The translations under genes and the position numbers were made by a program. Positions 20,255-26,807 of a DNA stretch of 64,000 nucleotides are shown in pieces. The notes under the pieces were generated by a model. That model was not told the origin of the DNA and ran no database searches. It saw only the letters and a list, made by a program, of their open reading frames with translations. The DNA is from Candidatus Woesearchaeota archaeon B3_Woes. GTDB taxonomy: Archaea; Nanobdellota; Nanobdellia; Woesearchaeales; B3-WOES. The stretch covers positions 332,323-396,322 of the forward strand of contig NJBG01000001.1 in NCBI GenBank assembly GCA_005222965.1. Reading direction: 5' to 3'. Within the stretch, counting starts at the first letter, position 1, and each line of letters begins with the position of its first letter.

Positions 20255-20563
20255 ATGAAACAAGAAAAACCAGATCAATATTATGAAGCTGTCCTACAAT
20301 TAAGAAATAACCCCCCTGAAGAGTCTGTAAGTTGTGTAGTAAATGCTATTAAAAAAAGAAAAGGTGTTTCTATTGCAAAATTATCTAAAGTTAAAGGAGG
20401 TATTGATATTTATATTTCTTCACAAAGATTCACAAGAACATTAGGTAAACTTCTAAAAAAATCATTTAAAGGAGAATTAATAGAATCAAGAAAACTTTAT
20501 GGAATGGATAGACAAAAGAGCAAAAAGATTTACAGAGGAACTGTCTTATTCAGATTTGACTAA
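20255..20563 (+). CDS. Shortened NMD3-like protein
   Basis: 102 residues matching the central part of archaeal/eukaryotic NMD3 (YYEAVLQLR and IDIYISSQRFTRTLGKLL). The N-terminal Cys-rich zinc module of full-length NMD3 is missing. Full NMD3 binds the large ribosomal subunit; what the short archaeal form does is unknown. It overlaps convergent cysS by four bases. Confidence 0.65.
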   Translation: MKQEKPDQYYEAVLQLRNNPPEESVSCVVNAIKKRKGVSIAKLSKVKGGIDIYISSQRFTRTLGKLLKKSFKGELIESRKLYGMDRQKSKKIYRGTVLFRFD

Positions 20564-21954
20564 ACCTTTTTCCATCTAACTCCCTCTGAAGTGTCTTCAA
20601 GAACTATTCCTTTTTTCTTTAAATCATCTCTAATCTTATCAGCTTTAGAATAATCTTTATTTTTCCTTGCTTTCTCTCTTTGTTCAATTAATTCTTTGAT
20701 TTCTTTGTCGAGCTTTTGTTTTTCCTCTTCAATATCTTTAATATCTAAACCAAAGACTTTGTCAAAATCATAAGCTAACTCAAGTTTTTCTTTACTTCCT
20801 AGTTTTTCGTCTCTTAAAACATCCCATAAAACTGATAATGCTTTAGGCATATTAAGATCATCGTCAATATATTCTTTGAATTGTTTTCTATATTTTTCAA
20901 ATTCTTTAGTTTTATTCGAGTCTTTTTTTGATTTTAAGTCAATAATAATATTTTTTAATCTTTCATATGAGTTTTTAGCACCTTCTAAAATTTCTAATGA
21001 GAAATTAAGCTGTTTTCTATATGATGTGTTTAAACAAAAATATCTATAAGCTAAGGCCGTAAATCCATTTTTTTCTAAATCTGAGATTGTGTATAATCCT
21101 CCTGTGCTTTTGCTTATTTTTTCACTTTTATGGGTTAAAAAAGCACCATGAAGCCAGTATTTTACCCATGGTTTAACATTAAAAGCTGCTTCGCTTTGCG
21201 CAATCTCATTTGTATGATGTACTTGAATATGATCCTCTCCACCTGTATGGATGTCAAATTGTTTTCCTAAGTATTTAGAAGACATTGCAGAACATTCCAA
21301 ATGCCATCCTGGAAATCCAATGCCCCATTTTGTTTTCCATTCTTGTTGACGTTTTTTTAAAGTATCTGAGAATTTCCATAATGCAAAATCTGTTTTATTG
21401 CGTTTTTCACCTAAAGAAACTCTTTTTCCAGCTTCTAAACCTTCTAAATCAATTAATCCAAGTTTTCCATAGTCTTTAAGTTTAGATGTATTAAAATAAA
21501 CTCCATCTGAAGTTTGATATGTAAAACCTTTTTTTTCCAATAATTTCACCAATGCAATTTGTTCTTTAATATGATCTGTTGCTTTACAAATTATATTTGG
21601 TGGAATGATATTTAATTTTTTACAATCCTTTTCAAAAACAGATGCATAGTATTCAGATATTTGTTTAGCTGTTTTGCCTTCTTTTTTAGCAGCCTTTTCA
21701 ATCTTATCTTCACCTGTATCAGCATCTGATGTTAAATGACCTACATCTGTGTAATTCATGACATGCTTTGTTTTAAAGTTATTATAATTTAAAACCCTTT
21801 TTAGAATGTCATTAAATATATAGGTTCTTAGATTTCCAATATGTTGGTACCAATAAACAGTAGGACCGCAACTATACATACCAACATGACCTTTTTTAAT
21901 TGGCTTAAATAATTCTTTCTTTCTTGTCAAAGTGTTATATAACTTGAGAGCCAT
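20560..21954 (-). CDS. cysS: Cysteinyl-tRNA synthetase
   Basis: Class I synthetase, 464 residues. Zinc-site [17 protein letters not shown] contains the HIGN signature, further zinc ligands lie in WHLECSAM and HHTNE, and the KMSKS-equivalent is KISKS. The C-terminal anticodon-binding region ends in the typical [14 protein letters not shown]. Single gene with a short AT-rich promoter at about 21960-21990. Confidence 0.97.
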
Positions 21955-22018
21955 ATTTACTATCAGAAATTCTATACTTAAATACTTTTCTTATAATTTA
22001 AAAAAATAAAAAAAAGAA

Positions 22019-23275
22019 TTATAAATCCTTAATTATTAAAACAGCGATGTTTGTTTCTTCTGGTTTTACTTTAGAGTCCATTGCAACAACAAATTTAACT
22101 CCTGCTGTCTCTGCAGTGGTTGCAAGATTTTTATCAACAACACCATCAAACAAAATTGCATAAATGCCGGAACTTAAACTTTTAACAGTTGATCCAAGCT
22201 CCATTATAGGTACTTTGCCTAAAATCTCTAGTTTCTGATCTAAAATATAAGCTCCTCTTGTTCCAATTAAATCCTCAAGCATCTTTGAAAATGTTTTTTT
22301 CTCAGAATCTGTTGGAACTGCTTTTTTAACACCAAAGTTTCTTTGTGCAGGTCTTTGTTGATATGTTCTCTGTGGTGGTCTTTGAGCTTGTCTATTAAAG
22401 AAAGATCTTTTCTCAGGAGCTGCTCCTCCGTTTGCAGATTCTCTTTTTAACTCCATACTCACCTGTTCTGCTGTCATTTTTGATCTTAAAGCCTTATGGA
22501 TTTCTTTTTGTGTTAATTCTTCAAGTTCTTTTCCAGCAGGAGCCCTAGTTGCAAAATCAATTTCTGCACAACCAAATAAACTTTGGAGTATAAGGTTTCC
22601 TCCTCTGTCTCCATCAACAAAAGCGGTAACTGTCTTTTTCTTAGATAACTCAATTATTGTTTCTGGTACTGAGGTTCCATTTGTTGCTATTGCATTCTTA
22701 AAACCATATTTAAGTAAATTAACAACATCTGCACGTCCCTCTACAATAATTATCTCATCTGACTCTTCTACCGCAGGTCCAGCAGATAATCTATCCTTTC
22801 CATATTCTACTATTTCCATTACTCGAACAGAAGATATTACTTCATTTGCAATTTCCTGAGAATCAGGTAATACGTTGTCCTTAAGCTCTTTTAGTAATTC
22901 TTTAGCTCTCTCAATTACAAAAGTTCTTTTACTCACTCTGACATCTTCTATATTCTCGATTTTGATAACAGAATCACATGGACCTATTCTTTTTATGATC
23001 TCTAATGCTGCTCCTATAATACTTGTCTCTGCTTTGTCTAAACTTGATGGAATCACTATCTTTCCATTTGATTTTCCGTTTCTTGTTTCTATGTTTACTT
23101 CTATTCTTCCTATTCTACCTGATCTTTGTAGTTCTCTTAGTTCTAGGTCAGATCCTAATAAACCTTCTGTTTGGCCAAAAATTGCTCCAATTACATCTGG
23201 TTTATCAACAACTCCTTCTGCATTAATATTTGCATGAACTATGTATTTTGAACTTGTTTGTGCTATTTTTCCCAT
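22019..23275 (-). CDS. dnaG: Archaeal DnaG-like primase
   Basis: Toprim-domain protein of archaea; in other species it has primase activity and associates with the exosome as the poly(A)-binding subunit. 418 residues: conserved N-terminal domain (YIVHANINAEGVVDKPDVIG), Toprim at about 174-250 with E179 (IIIVEGRAD) and D221/D223 (AFVDGDRGG), then an Arg/Gln/Pro-rich linker and a C-terminal domain. A GGAGG site precedes ATG 23275. The leader upstream carries a mini-ORF and hairpin (separate entry). Confidence 0.95.
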   Translation of the reverse strand: MGKIAQTSSKYIVHANINAEGVVDKPDVIGAIFGQTEGLLGSDLELRELQRSGRIGRIEVNIETRNGKSNGKIVIPSSLDKAETSIIGAALEIIKRIGPCDSVIKIENIEDVRVSKRTFVIERAKELLKELKDNVLPDSQEIANEVISSVRVMEIVEYGKDRLSAGPAVEESDEIIIVEGRADVVNLLKYGFKNAIATNGTSVPETIIELSKKKTVTAFVDGDRGGNLILQSLFGCAEIDFATRAPAGKELEELTQKEIHKALRSKMTAEQVSMELKRESANGGAAPEKRSFFNRQAQRPPQRTYQQRPAQRNFGVKKAVPTDSEKKTFSKMLEDLIGTRGAYILDQKLEILGKVPIMELGSTVKSLSSGIYAILFDGVVDKNLATTAETAGVKFVVAMDSKVKPEETNIAVLIIKDL

Positions 23276-23303
23276 TTTCTTTGAACCTCCAATGAAAAGA
23301 TTT

Positions 23304-23335
23304 GAAAATTTCTACGAAATTTTCATTTTTCCTCC
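23304..23335 (-). promoter_or_regulatory. dnaG leader: four-residue uORF overlapping a perfect hairpin
   Basis: On the minus strand a GGAGG (23331-23335) precedes ATG 23326, which opens the mini-ORF M-K-I-S-stop (23312-23326). The mini-ORF overlaps a perfect 9-bp inverted repeat GAAAATTTC-GTA-GAAATTTTC (23304-23324). The real dnaG site (GGAGG, then ATG 23275) follows 29 bases after the hairpin. The design suggests translation-dependent control of dnaG, but this is inference. Confidence 0.5.
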
Positions 23336-23576
23336 ATACAAAACAAGCAGAATAAGTACTAAAAATTACTAACATAACCCTTTTACAATGTAAAATGATG
23401 TTGTGATGTCAGTGATTTTAATACCCCCTATAGAACAAATAAATGTGCAAATAAAGCTTATTTTAAGCTCTTTAGGCATAATTCGCCTTTTTTTAAGTCA
23501 AATACGTGATTTAAATGATAAATGACATTTATTTACTCTATTTCTGCTTCTTTTCTTATTTTTAATGTAAATATGA
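23336..23576. other. Non-coding stretch between H/ACA RNA and dnaG leader
   Basis: About 240 bases without a credible ORF. Minor structure only: a hairpin AGCTTA-TTT-TAAGCT (23455-23469) and, on the plus strand, AGGC/GCCT followed by seven T (23474-23494), which could end a plus-strand transcript. It may be part of a long dnaG leader or a spacer after the H/ACA RNA. Confidence 0.4.
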
Positions 23577-23730
23577 ATTTGTTGCCCGTAACACTAACTC
23601 CCAAGCTCATTGCTTGCGTTTAGCGACAGCTCCATTGAGTACTCTCGTGACGGGCTGTTATACACAAGAGTGTCTTTAATTCACCGCCAAAACACGTGTT
23701 TCAGCTCATTAAAGGACCGATTTGTGTAAA
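23577..23730 (-). ncRNA. Two-hairpin H/ACA guide RNA
   Basis: Read on the minus strand. Hairpin 1: CACAA/TTGTG base stem (23722-23726 with 23663-23667), pocket of 7 and 6 nt, CTTTAAT/ATTAAAG upper stem. A kink-turn follows (GA on one strand, GGT-GA on the other), then an 8-bp apical stem with ACGT loop (23686-23705). An ACA (23656-23658) follows, 15 nt after the pocket-closing stem. Hairpin 2: GCCCGT/ACGGGC base stem (23650-23655 with 23584-23589), a pocket, ACTC/GAGT upper stem, then ACA (23580-23582) 14 nt after that stem. G-U pairs in hairpin 1 form only on the minus strand. It is GC-rich against its surroundings. It should guide pseudouridylation by Cbf5 with L7Ae at the kink-turn. Confidence 0.85.
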
Positions 23731-23750
23731 GAAATCATAATGCTTTGCGC

Positions 23751-23759
23751 TATTTAAAG
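23751..23759 (-). promoter_or_regulatory. TATA box for the H/ACA RNA
   Basis: CTTTAAATA on the minus strand, centred 25 bases before the expected 5' end near 23730, which is four bases before the first base pair of hairpin 1. Confidence 0.65.
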
Positions 23760-23818
23760 CTTGTGATTTGAAATTAGAATAACCAAGATTTAAAAACCCA
23801 ATAGTGTTTCATATCTAT

Positions 23819-24523
23819 ATGTCAAAAATAACTAAGGAAAAATTTAAGACAAAACATAATGTATTTGATGATTTTACTAATAGAACCATCTTCAAATTAA
23901 TAAGTGAAGGTCATTTTGATGGTTTAGAAGGCCCCATTAGCATAGGCAAAGAATCTAATGTGTTTTTAGCTAAAAAGAGGAACAAAAATATAGTTGTTAA
24001 GGTATATAGGGTTAATTCTTGCGATTTCAATAAGATGTTTGATTATATCAAATCAGATCCAAGATACCTTGATCTAAAAGGCAGAAAAAGAAATATCATA
24101 TTTCATTGGGTTCAAAGAGAATATAGGAACTTGTTAAAAGCAAGAAAAGCTAATATAAGAGTTCCAACACCCATTGTATTCAAAAATCATATTCTTGTTA
24201 TGGAATTTATTGGACAAAACAACAAAATAGCACCAATGCTAAAAGATAAAACACCAGAAAATCCTAAAAATTTTTTTAATGAAATCATAAAAAACATAAG
24301 AAAATTATACAAAGCAGGATTAGTTCATGCTGATTTATCTAGTTTTAATATCTTAAATTTAAATGATAAACCTGTTTTTATTGACTTTTCACAATGCACA
24401 TCATTACAAGACCAAAGAGCAGAAGAGTATATTATCAGAGACATAAAAAATCTTTGTAATTTTTTTAGAAAACAAGGTTTAAAATTAGATGAAAAAAAGA
24501 TCCTTCAAAAAATAAAAGCATAA
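23819..24523 (+). CDS. rio1: RIO1-type atypical protein kinase
   Basis: 234 residues. The RIO kinase signatures are present: GKESNVFLAKK (flexible loop), KVYRVNSCDF, LVHADLSSFNIL (catalytic Asp) and VFIDFSQ (metal-binding Asp). In archaea and eukaryotes it acts in small-subunit ribosome maturation. ATG 23819 is preferred over GTG 23804: GATTTAAAAA at about 23788-23797 makes it leaderless. It heads a cluster with the KH protein and topoisomerase VI, an order common in archaea. Confidence 0.93.
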   Translation: MSKITKEKFKTKHNVFDDFTNRTIFKLISEGHFDGLEGPISIGKESNVFLAKKRNKNIVVKVYRVNSCDFNKMFDYIKSDPRYLDLKGRKRNIIFHWVQREYRNLLKARKANIRVPTPIVFKNHILVMEFIGQNNKIAPMLKDKTPENPKNFFNEIIKNIRKLYKAGLVHADLSSFNILNLNDKPVFIDFSQCTSLQDQRAEEYIIRDIKNLCNFFRKQGLKLDEKKILQKIKA

Positions 24524-24568
24524 TTTTTTAAATCGATGATATTTTTAATAATAAGGTGATCGCCTCCA

Positions 24569-25105
24569 ATGACAGAATACAAATATGATCTAAAAATTCC
24601 TAAAGAAAGAGTTGCTGTTCTTATAGGAACAAAAGGAGAAAGTAAAAAACATCTAGAATCTGAAACAAAAACTAAGATAGAAGTCGATAGTAAAGAAGGG
24701 GATGTGTCTATTTCTGGAGAAGACGGCTTAAAATTATATGCTGCAAGAGAATTAATAACTGCAATTGGACGTGGTTTTAACCCAAAAATTGCTTTAAAAT
24801 TACTTAACGTGGATTATTCTTTTGAATTAATAAATCTTGGGGATTTAGCAAGATCAAAAAATGATCTAATAAGATTAAAAGGTCGTGTTATTGGTCAAGA
24901 AGGTAAAAGTAGGAAAATAATTGAAGAATTGACAAATTGTGAATTGTGTGTTTATGGGAAAACTATTGGGATTATTGGCCCTGTTGAGTTTACTCCTCTT
25001 GCAAGAAGAGCAATAGATATGTTATTAGGAGGGAGCACACACGCTGGTGTTTTTAAATATCTTGAAAAGCAAAGAAGAAATATGAATATACAGAAAATTA
25101 ACTAA
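24569..25105 (+). CDS. Dim2/Pno1-like KH-domain protein
   Basis: 178 residues with two KH domains: KIPKERVAVLIGTKGESKKH (first, GxKG loop) and RLKGRVIGQEGKSRKIIEEL (second, GxEGK loop). It ends with a GSTHAGVFKYLEKQRR tail typical of archaeal Pno1/Dim2, which binds 16S rRNA 3' ends during small-subunit assembly. A GGTGATC site precedes the ATG. It lies beside rio1, its expected functional partner. Confidence 0.9.
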   Translation: MTEYKYDLKIPKERVAVLIGTKGESKKHLESETKTKIEVDSKEGDVSISGEDGLKLYAARELITAIGRGFNPKIALKLLNVDYSFELINLGDLARSKNDLIRLKGRVIGQEGKSRKIIEELTNCELCVYGKTIGIIGPVEFTPLARRAIDMLLGGSTHAGVFKYLEKQRRNMNIQKIN

Positions 25106-25145
25106 AACAATACATTTTTAAATAAATCCAAAACATTTCATAAAG

Positions 25146-26807
25146 ATGGCAAATTCAAACATAGCTGAAGAGATGGCAAAAAAACAAAGAGATATCTCTG
25201 TAGCATCTTTCTTCGAGAAAAATAGACATTTATTGGGTTTTGACAACAAAAGAAAAGCTCTTCTAACAGTTGTTAAAGAGGCTGTTGATAATTCTATTGA
25301 TGCTTGTGAAGAAGCAGATATTTTACCAGAAATCAGTATTGAATTAATTGATTTAGGAAATGATAAATTTAGAATCATAATAGAAGATAATGGTCCTGGA
25401 ATTGTAAAAAAACAGATCCCCCCAATATTTGCGAAATTGCTCTATGGAAGCAAATTTCATAATCTGTCTCAAACAAGAGGTCAGCAAGGGATTGGGATAA
25501 GTGCAGCAGTAATGTATTCTCAATTAACAACAGGAAAACCAACAAAAATCACATCAAAAGTCAAAAACAACTCAGGGGCACATTATTACGAGCTTCATAT
25601 TGATATTGCTCAGAATAAACCAGACATAATTAAAGATGAATCTGTTGATTGGAATAAAGATCATGGAGTAAAAATTGAAATGGATTTAGAAGGAAATTAC
25701 CAAGGTGGAAGTCAAAGTGTTGACCAATACCTTAAAGAAACTGCAATTGTTAATCCGCACATTACTATAATTTATACTAATCCTAAAGCAGAACAAACAA
25801 TATTTGCAAGAGCCACCGATAACCTTCCTAAAAAACCTGTTGAAATAAAACCCCACCCTTATGGTATTGAATTGGGTATGTTAATGAGGATGGCAAAAGA
25901 TACAGAATCAAGAACCCTTCAAAGTTTTCTAACAAATGATTTTTCAAGAGTAGGTTCTGGAACAGCAAAACAAATATGTGAAAATGCTGCTTTACTACCA
26001 AACACAAAACCCCGTGAACTTGTTCGTGAAATGGCTGAAAAACTTATGGAAGGTATTAAGAAAACAAAAATAATTTCACCTCCAACAGACTGTATAAGCC
26101 CGATTAGCTCAGAAGAATTAGAAAAAGGTCTAAAAAAAGAAATAAATGCTGAATTTTACTATTCAATAACAAGACCTCCTTCTGTTTACAGAGGAAATCC
26201 ATTTATTGTAGAAGCAGGTCTAGCCTATGGTGGTGATCAAAGTTCAGAAGGCTCAATAACTTTAATGAGATTTGCAAACAGAGTTCCCTTGCTTTACCAA
26301 CAAAGCGCATGTGCTGCTGCTAAATCTGTTGTTCAGACAAATTGGAGAAAATATGGATTAAGCCAAAGTTCAGGAGCTCTGCCTCAAGGACCATTAACAG
26401 TTGTTGTTCATATCGCTTCTGTATGGGTTCCATTTACATCTGAATCAAAAGAAGCTATAGCGCATTATCCTGAAATTATTAAAGAAATTAAATTAGCTTT
26501 GCAAGAAATTGGTCGTAAACTAGGAAGCTATGTGCATAAGAAAAAGAGGGTTTTAGCAGAGGGGCAAAAAAGAGATTATATTAAAACGTATATTCCTCAC
26601 GTTGCTGAGGCTTTAAAAGAATTAGTAGGATTTAAAGATGCAGATGAGAAAAAAGTAGAAGAGTACTTAACTTCAATCCTTGAGAAACAAAGAGGAAAAC
26701 TAGAAAATCTTGAAGTTGTAAATGAAGAATATGATGAAGAATTAGCGAAGATTGGGAAGGATAATAAAGAGGAGCAGAAAACTTTAGGTGAGGAAGAAAA
26801 GAAATAA
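25146..26807 (+). CDS. top6B: DNA topoisomerase VI subunit B
   Basis: ATPase subunit of the type IIB topoisomerase, which decatenates and relaxes DNA. 553 residues: GHKL ATPase domain with EAVDNSIDACEEA, EDNGPGI and RGQQGIGISAA, then the helix-two-turn-helix and transducer domain. The C-terminal Lys/Glu tail is short. The partner top6A lies 0.76 kb downstream, separated by a transporter gene. Confidence 0.96.
   Translation: MANSNIAEEMAKKQRDISVASFFEKNRHLLGFDNKRKALLTVVKEAVDNSIDACEEADILPEISIELIDLGNDKFRIIIEDNGPGIVKKQIPPIFAKLLYGSKFHNLSQTRGQQGIGISAAVMYSQLTTGKPTKITSKVKNNSGAHYYELHIDIAQNKPDIIKDESVDWNKDHGVKIEMDLEGNYQGGSQSVDQYLKETAIVNPHITIIYTNPKAEQTIFARATDNLPKKPVEIKPHPYGIELGMLMRMAKDTESRTLQSFLTNDFSRVGSGTAKQICENAALLPNTKPRELVREMAEKLMEGIKKTKIISPPTDCISPISSEELEKGLKKEINAEFYYSITRPPSVYRGNPFIVEAGLAYGGDQSSEGSITLMRFANRVPLLYQQSACAAAKSVVQTNWRKYGLSQSSGALPQGPLTVVVHIASVWVPFTSESKEAIAHYPEIIKEIKLALQEIGRKLGSYVHKKKRVLAEGQKRDYIKTYIPHVAEALKELVGFKDADEKKVEEYLTSILEKQRGKLENLEVVNEEYDEELAKIGKDNKEEQKTLGEEEKK

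Follow-up and report, generated by a model that had tools for sequence, protein, structure and literature searches.

The window, by which we mean the whole 64,000-nucleotide stretch of contig NJBG01000001.1 that was analysed, belongs to the 1.02 Mb genome of a woesearchaeote, a tiny archaeon that has not been cultured. The element described here is located on the minus strand of an AT-rich intergenic region. It is flanked by dnaG, also on the minus strand, and by a plus-strand RIO1 kinase gene (from approximately 23819). The surrounding genes (20560-26807) are related to translation or RNA and encode CysS, DnaG, the RIO1 kinase and a universal archaeal KH protein (arCOG04150), followed by topoisomerase VI B. 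The annotated features are given below, with the evidence for each in brackets.

23751-23758, minus strand: TATA box TTTAAATA, the putative guide RNA promoter and presumably also that of dnaG (position, homologs)
23656-23731, minus strand: hairpin 1 (H1), with lower stem, pocket, kink-turn stem, apical stem and an ACA box at 23658-23656 (compensatory changes, fold z -3.1)
23715-23721, minus strand: 5' guide arm of H1, AUCGGUC (23S target match, co-variation with 23S)
23668-23673, minus strand: 3' guide arm of H1, ACACUC, predicted to pair with 23S GGGUGU (23S target match)
23580-23655, minus strand: hairpin 2 (H2), the most conserved part, with an ACA box at 23582-23580 (homolog and model searches)
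23641-23646, minus strand: 5' guide arm of H2, GAGAGU, predicted to pair with ACUCUC of 23S helix 69 (target match, guides of relatives)
23593-23596, minus strand: 3' guide arm of H2, UAGU, predicted to pair with 23S ACUA (23S target match)
23525-23541, minus strand: 5' arm of a third long stem, AUAGAGUAAAUAAAUGU, in the dnaG leader (recurrent stem in relatives, fold)
23430-23446, minus strand: 3' arm of the third long stem, ACAUUUAUUUGUUCUAU, in the dnaG leader (recurrent stem in relatives, fold)
22019-23275, minus strand: dnaG, encoding archaeal DnaG, a primase-like protein and exosome subunit (NF003108, 476.6 bits)

The sequence agrees with the original prediction, in which two minus-strand hairpins, each with a kink-turn, have their ACA at 15 and 14 nt and a TATA box lies upstream. 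H1 consists of a lower stem (UACACAA/UUGUGUA), a pocket (AUCGGUC/ACACUC), a textbook kink-turn in which the predicted stem CUUUAAU/AUUAAAG, the tandem GA and the GGU bulge are all present, and an apical stem formed by GCUGAAAC and GUUUUGGC, with the ACA 15 nt past the pocket-closing pair. In H2 the lower stem is GCCCGU/ACGGGC and the ACA lies 14 nt past the closing pair. Both distances are thus inside the 14-16 nt expected of an archaeal box H/ACA guide RNA, and productive H/ACA folds are known to have the ACA at 14-15 nt (PMC4652768). The second kink-turn is less regular, as had been pointed out; it is formed by GGAGCU / AGC-AAU-GA, where the GAGC and GA are invariant and mismatches occur below the GA pairs. 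Among the homologs the GA motifs of the kink-turns are nearly invariant. A GA stem of 10 stacked layers is required in productive Pyrococcus folds (PMC4652768). The GA stem of H1 contains seven pairs and two GA, giving 9 layers, or 10 if a conserved C.A/C.C layer is counted, while for H2 a count of 10 layers has to include two mismatches and tolerate a GG bulge. As single sequences the hairpins are moderately unusual, each folding better than its dinucleotide shuffles (z -3.1 for H1 and -2.3 for H2), and the lowest-energy fold of H2 is not the H/ACA fold. No match to Rfam, including its archaeal H/ACA entries, was found in the window at the gathering score, the scores being at chance level only (E up to 10).

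DNA homologs were found in about 30 of 60 relatives with E values of 2.5e-54 to 1e-10, and, where relatives with the element are named, they are nearly all MAGs of Woesearchaeota or Nanoarchaeota. Compensatory (double-sided) changes occur at 25 of the 39 pairs in the 26 full-length homologs, where 90.0% of the cells pair; shuffles reach 79.6% and slid-partner controls 31-44%. All seven pairs of the H1 lower stem show compensatory changes, with 96-97% of cells paired. For 78 distinct sequences in an alignment fitted to the structure, double-sided changes were observed at 31 of the 39 pairs and the covariation score was 0.446 versus 0.168 in shuffles. A covariance model built from the 26 full-length homologs matched 294 of the 353 genomes of the same order and reached other orders of the class, with none beyond the class among the matches listed. 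H2 is the core of the RNA, as it occurs alone in many relatives and was found class-wide, whereas a large subset of the relatives has H1 and others lack it. By comparison of these homologs, which supports its structure and its strand, the element is a genuine structured and widely conserved RNA.

Several variations were also observed in individual loci. Insertions of tens of bases occur in the apical loop of H2 in five loci (L014, L031, L034, L062 and L106), where guides and stems are intact. The 5' half of H2 is partly duplicated in tandem in locus L029 of genome G053 (GCCCGTCACGAGAGTACC occurs twice, a few tens of bases apart), and two other genomes (G138 and G141) have two RNA-model matches each, so that their guide RNAs are possibly duplicated. 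One copy of the woesearchaeal RNA (L080, JAFCCF010000002.1) lies on a contig filed under the bacterial Aminicenantes, which is probably a misbinned archaeal contig. Bacterial contigs that match the search pattern lack the rest of hairpin 2 and were rejected as chance matches.

For H1, the best-scoring site in the 23S and 16S rRNAs of the same genome is GGGUGU[UC]ACCGAUU at 23S position 2604, in helix 92 with the A-loop, which corresponds by position to U2555 (E. coli numbering). Here AAUCGGU, i.e. the 5' arm and the preceding A, pairs with ACCGAUU of the 23S while the last C, next to the stem, is unpaired, and shuffled guides equalled the score in two of 400 trials. The site emerges only when this conserved C is left unpaired; under a strict zero-offset rule the pocket has no convincing target, as the best score of 20 was matched by 117 of 400 shuffles. 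The original prediction had instead pointed to a target in 23S domain I, which was not borne out: GACCGAU is present at 23S position 460 but without the other half, and a search for GAGUGU-NN-GACCGAU gave no site genome-wide at one mismatch or fewer.

The guide and the target of H1 change together among the relatives. Most relatives have AUGGGU/ACCCAU and the genome of the window AUCGGU/ACCGAU, and AUUGGU/ACCAAU and AAAGGU/ACCUAU were found in one genome each (G032 and G131 respectively), so that the variable position is occupied by G-C, C-G, U-A and A-U. Across 46 genomes, guide and 23S differ in 8 mismatched cells compared to 16.0 expected, a value reached in none of 20,000 permutations, and P is 1.5e-4 when one row is retained per family and sequence type. 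At a permutation P of about 1e-4, the H1 guide therefore co-varies with its predicted helix 92 target. The pairing is broken by one A.C mismatch each in three genomes (G002, G127 and G128), with one further mismatch in G002, and the H1 guides of family f7 (G107-G114), G231 and G232 do not fit helix 92; the rRNA regions of the genomes with these deviating guides (f7 with G114, G231 and G232) hold no convincing target for them. The H1 fold is kept in loci L040, L050, L176, L177 and L209 (family f7) and in L185, L187 and L196, where the guide no longer fits helix 92 although the 23S, as far as known, has the common sequence type. This suggests that the deviating guides are either retargeted or decaying. 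Next to the upper stem, the conserved C of the 5' arm and the A or C of the 3' arm are not both paired with the target, and since H1 leaves one guide base unpaired, U2554 and U2555 are indistinguishable as the modified position. The site would be U2554 if the C.A/C.C layer stacks as the tenth layer of the GA stem and U2555 if it does not.

The best-scoring site for H2 is ACUA[UA]ACUCUC at 23S position 1948 in the loop of helix 69, equivalent by alignment to E. coli 1917. This match is modest (4+6 bp), and 35 of 400 shuffled guides were as good. Bipartite complementarity around an rRNA uridine in the pocket was thus found for both hairpins. Relatives outside the order have the H2 guide GAGAAU in place of GAGAGU, and AUUCUC was therefore expected in their helix 69. 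The 23S search that followed this prediction recovered AUUCUC at 13 of 13 sites outside the order (the H2 guides had been read in six of these 13 genomes), and ACUCUC in three genomes of the same order including the one studied. The change of guide and target may have occurred only once, in a deep ancestor. Positions 1915 and 1917 of helix 69 are pseudouridines in Haloarcula, where they are ascribed to guide RNAs, and they are known to be universal (PMC2584109), which lends support to the H2 target. In addition, a GUUA in H2 that overlaps the UAGU could pair with UAAC for modification of 1915, by analogy with a pairing proposed for HP2 of Haloferax (PMC2584109). The matches within the single genome are suggestive for H1 with helix 92 and weak for H2 with helix 69. 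It is the co-variation of guides with targets, seen on comparison of genomes, that carries the guide argument.

The genome encodes Cbf5 (423.6 bits), L7Ae/eL8 and Nop10. A search with PF04410 gave no Gar1, but the same model fails to recover the Sulfolobus protein too; Gar1 is possibly divergent or missing in this genome.

The RNA shows a fixed association with dnaG. In the first 16 loci checked, dnaG was directly downstream on the same strand in all 16 while the upstream neighbour varies. Altogether, 78 distinct loci had enough flank, of which one (L054, a bacterial chance match) was left out, and same-strand dnaG lies directly downstream of the RNA in 76 of the remaining 77; in the sole exception (L029) there is no dnaG within 1.5 kb. 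The same arrangement was observed in 13 of 13 loci outside the order. The gap between the RNA and dnaG is 300 nt in the genome studied, and from the GTTAGTG to the dnaG start the median is 250 nt. A TTTAWA motif precedes H1 by 18-43 nt in 45 of 52 double-hairpin loci; in single-hairpin loci it precedes H2 by 25-50 nt in 26 of 48. The background in the gap is 4.7% per window. In the gap between the RNA and dnaG we found no positionally conserved TATA, the only conserved one preceding the RNA, and no terminator-like site. Taken together, the synteny with dnaG and the one conserved promoter recovered by comparison suggest that the dnaG transcript most likely begins with this RNA: its place upstream of dnaG is fixed throughout the order and beyond, and a conserved second TATA is absent. 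Of the guide RNA with its own TATA box that had been proposed, the box is retained, but the RNA is most likely not a free-standing gene.

The leader contains a third long stem between the guide RNA and dnaG, which in the genome studied has 17 bp and a z of -3.87, and which recurs in many relatives as an AUAGRACAAG/CUUGUUCUAU stem. In the window (23430-23541, minus strand) and in the leaders of relatives, it encloses a loop of 45-100 nt rich in UUCAUUCAUCA-like motifs.

Our preferred reading, held with high confidence, is an archaeal box H/ACA guide RNA with two hairpins, making up the 5' part of the transcript of dnaG. That it works as a box H/ACA guide RNA and, judged by the features tested, belongs to this class is strongly supported by comparative analysis, and its embedding in the dnaG transcript is well supported by position. 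Covariation, conservation throughout the class and the joint change of guides and targets bear out the core of the original prediction, an unannotated two-hairpin H/ACA guide RNA carrying kink-turns and preceded by a TATA box. We infer that expression, RNP assembly, modification and processing, with transcription shared with dnaG, would proceed as follows. Transcription driven by the TATA box would yield an RNA starting a few bases before hairpin 1, in which L7Ae would occupy the kink-turns while Cbf5 and Nop10 would assemble on each hairpin and its ACA box. Pairing of hairpin 1 with helix 92 would lead to pseudouridylation in the A-loop at U2555 or U2554, and pairing of hairpin 2 with helix 69 to pseudouridylation at the equivalent of E. 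coli 1917 and possibly also at 1915. The guide would then probably be cut or trimmed off the dnaG message.

The AT-rich setting and the only moderately unusual folding of the single sequence are what a chance or decayed hairpin without function would show, but the compensatory changes, the class-wide conservation and the guide-target co-variation rule this out for practical purposes. A cis-acting dnaG leader, whose kink-turns bind L7Ae or another protein to control translation and which guides no rRNA modification, would account for the fixed place upstream of dnaG and for the third conserved stem, and control of translation by L7Ae bound to kink-turns is known from the 5' leaders of archaeal mRNAs (PMC5539422, PMC6298567). 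This reading leaves the pockets, the fixed ACA distance and the co-variation of both guide arms with the 23S unexplained, and we regard it as quite improbable.

The RNA could be an independent H/ACA gene that has a promoter and a 3' end to itself, dnaG being a mere neighbour, as its own TATA box and the 300-nt gap would allow; we consider this unlikely, though less so than the purely cis-acting leader, as the dnaG linkage weakens it. The distance from the GTTAGTG to the dnaG start shrinks to about 46-49 nt in three loci (L104, L109 and L111), the gap has neither a conserved TATA nor a terminator-like site, and dnaG is constant where the upstream neighbour varies. A further reading refines the guide RNA in the dnaG transcript and is not exclusive of it: assembly of the H/ACA RNP on the nascent transcript may set the level of the dnaG mRNA and hence of DnaG. 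The guide evidence and the class-wide dnaG linkage without a conserved intervening promoter are in its favour, and archaeal DnaG is an RNA-binding exosome subunit that binds rRNA and enables its tailing by the exosome (PMC4227792). As the linkage may reflect mere co-transcription, we put this forward tentatively; a regulation of dnaG coupled to the guide is a hypothesis, with the L7Ae-bound kink-turn leaders as precedent (PMC5539422, PMC6298567).

In the literature searched we found no description of an H/ACA guide RNA from Woesearchaeota. The closest known systems are Pab40/Pf7 of Pyrococcus and Af4 of Archaeoglobus, which likewise carry several H/ACA hairpins per RNA and follow the same kink-turn and ACA rules (PMC4652768, PMC2584109, PMC7991803). 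Hairpin 3 in these systems is likewise directed at the loop of helix 69; its target L2016 is given as Haloarcula 1956, equal to E. coli 1915. Unlike these, the woesearchaeal RNA has a canonical pairing that fits 1917, aims its other hairpin at the A-loop, has no Rfam match and is embedded in the dnaG leader. HP1 and HP2 of Haloferax (E. coli 1915, 1917 and 2586) similarly combine a helix 69 hairpin with a domain V hairpin (PMC2584109). The second woesearchaeal target is, however, the A-loop of helix 92 and not 2586, and the adjacent hairpins and the linkage to dnaG set it further apart. Among eukaryotes, the yeast snR10 accounts for an A-loop pseudouridine at 25S position 2923. The A-loop of Arabidopsis is also reported to carry a pseudouridine (PMC8351944). 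The predicted pseudouridine at 2554 or 2555 places the woesearchaeal RNA beside these A-loop cases, but the eukaryotic snoRNAs have no kink-turns and the likeness claimed is that of the target site. Finally, a kink-turn in the 5' leader is shared with the L7Ae-bound leaders of archaeal mRNAs (PMC5539422, PMC6298567), although here the kink-turns lie in H/ACA hairpins with rRNA-complementary pockets and the gene is dnaG.

The predicted targets are two central ribosomal sites, the A-loop being one of them, and the two-hairpin RNA is conserved across the whole order, with its second hairpin extending beyond it. In organisms beyond the reach of cultivation, guide RNAs could be assigned through the co-variation of guides and targets across MAGs. 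A guide RNA housed in a protein-coding message is suggested by the constant linkage to dnaG, which may also connect the modification of rRNA with the exosome. As a speculative extension, a single transcript found throughout this DPANN class could combine a 23S guide, directed at helix 69 and, in the order studied, also at the A-loop, with the DnaG message, the two being coupled through the H/ACA RNP in the leader. If this is true, assembly of that RNP would couple ribosome modification to RNA surveillance or to primase production.
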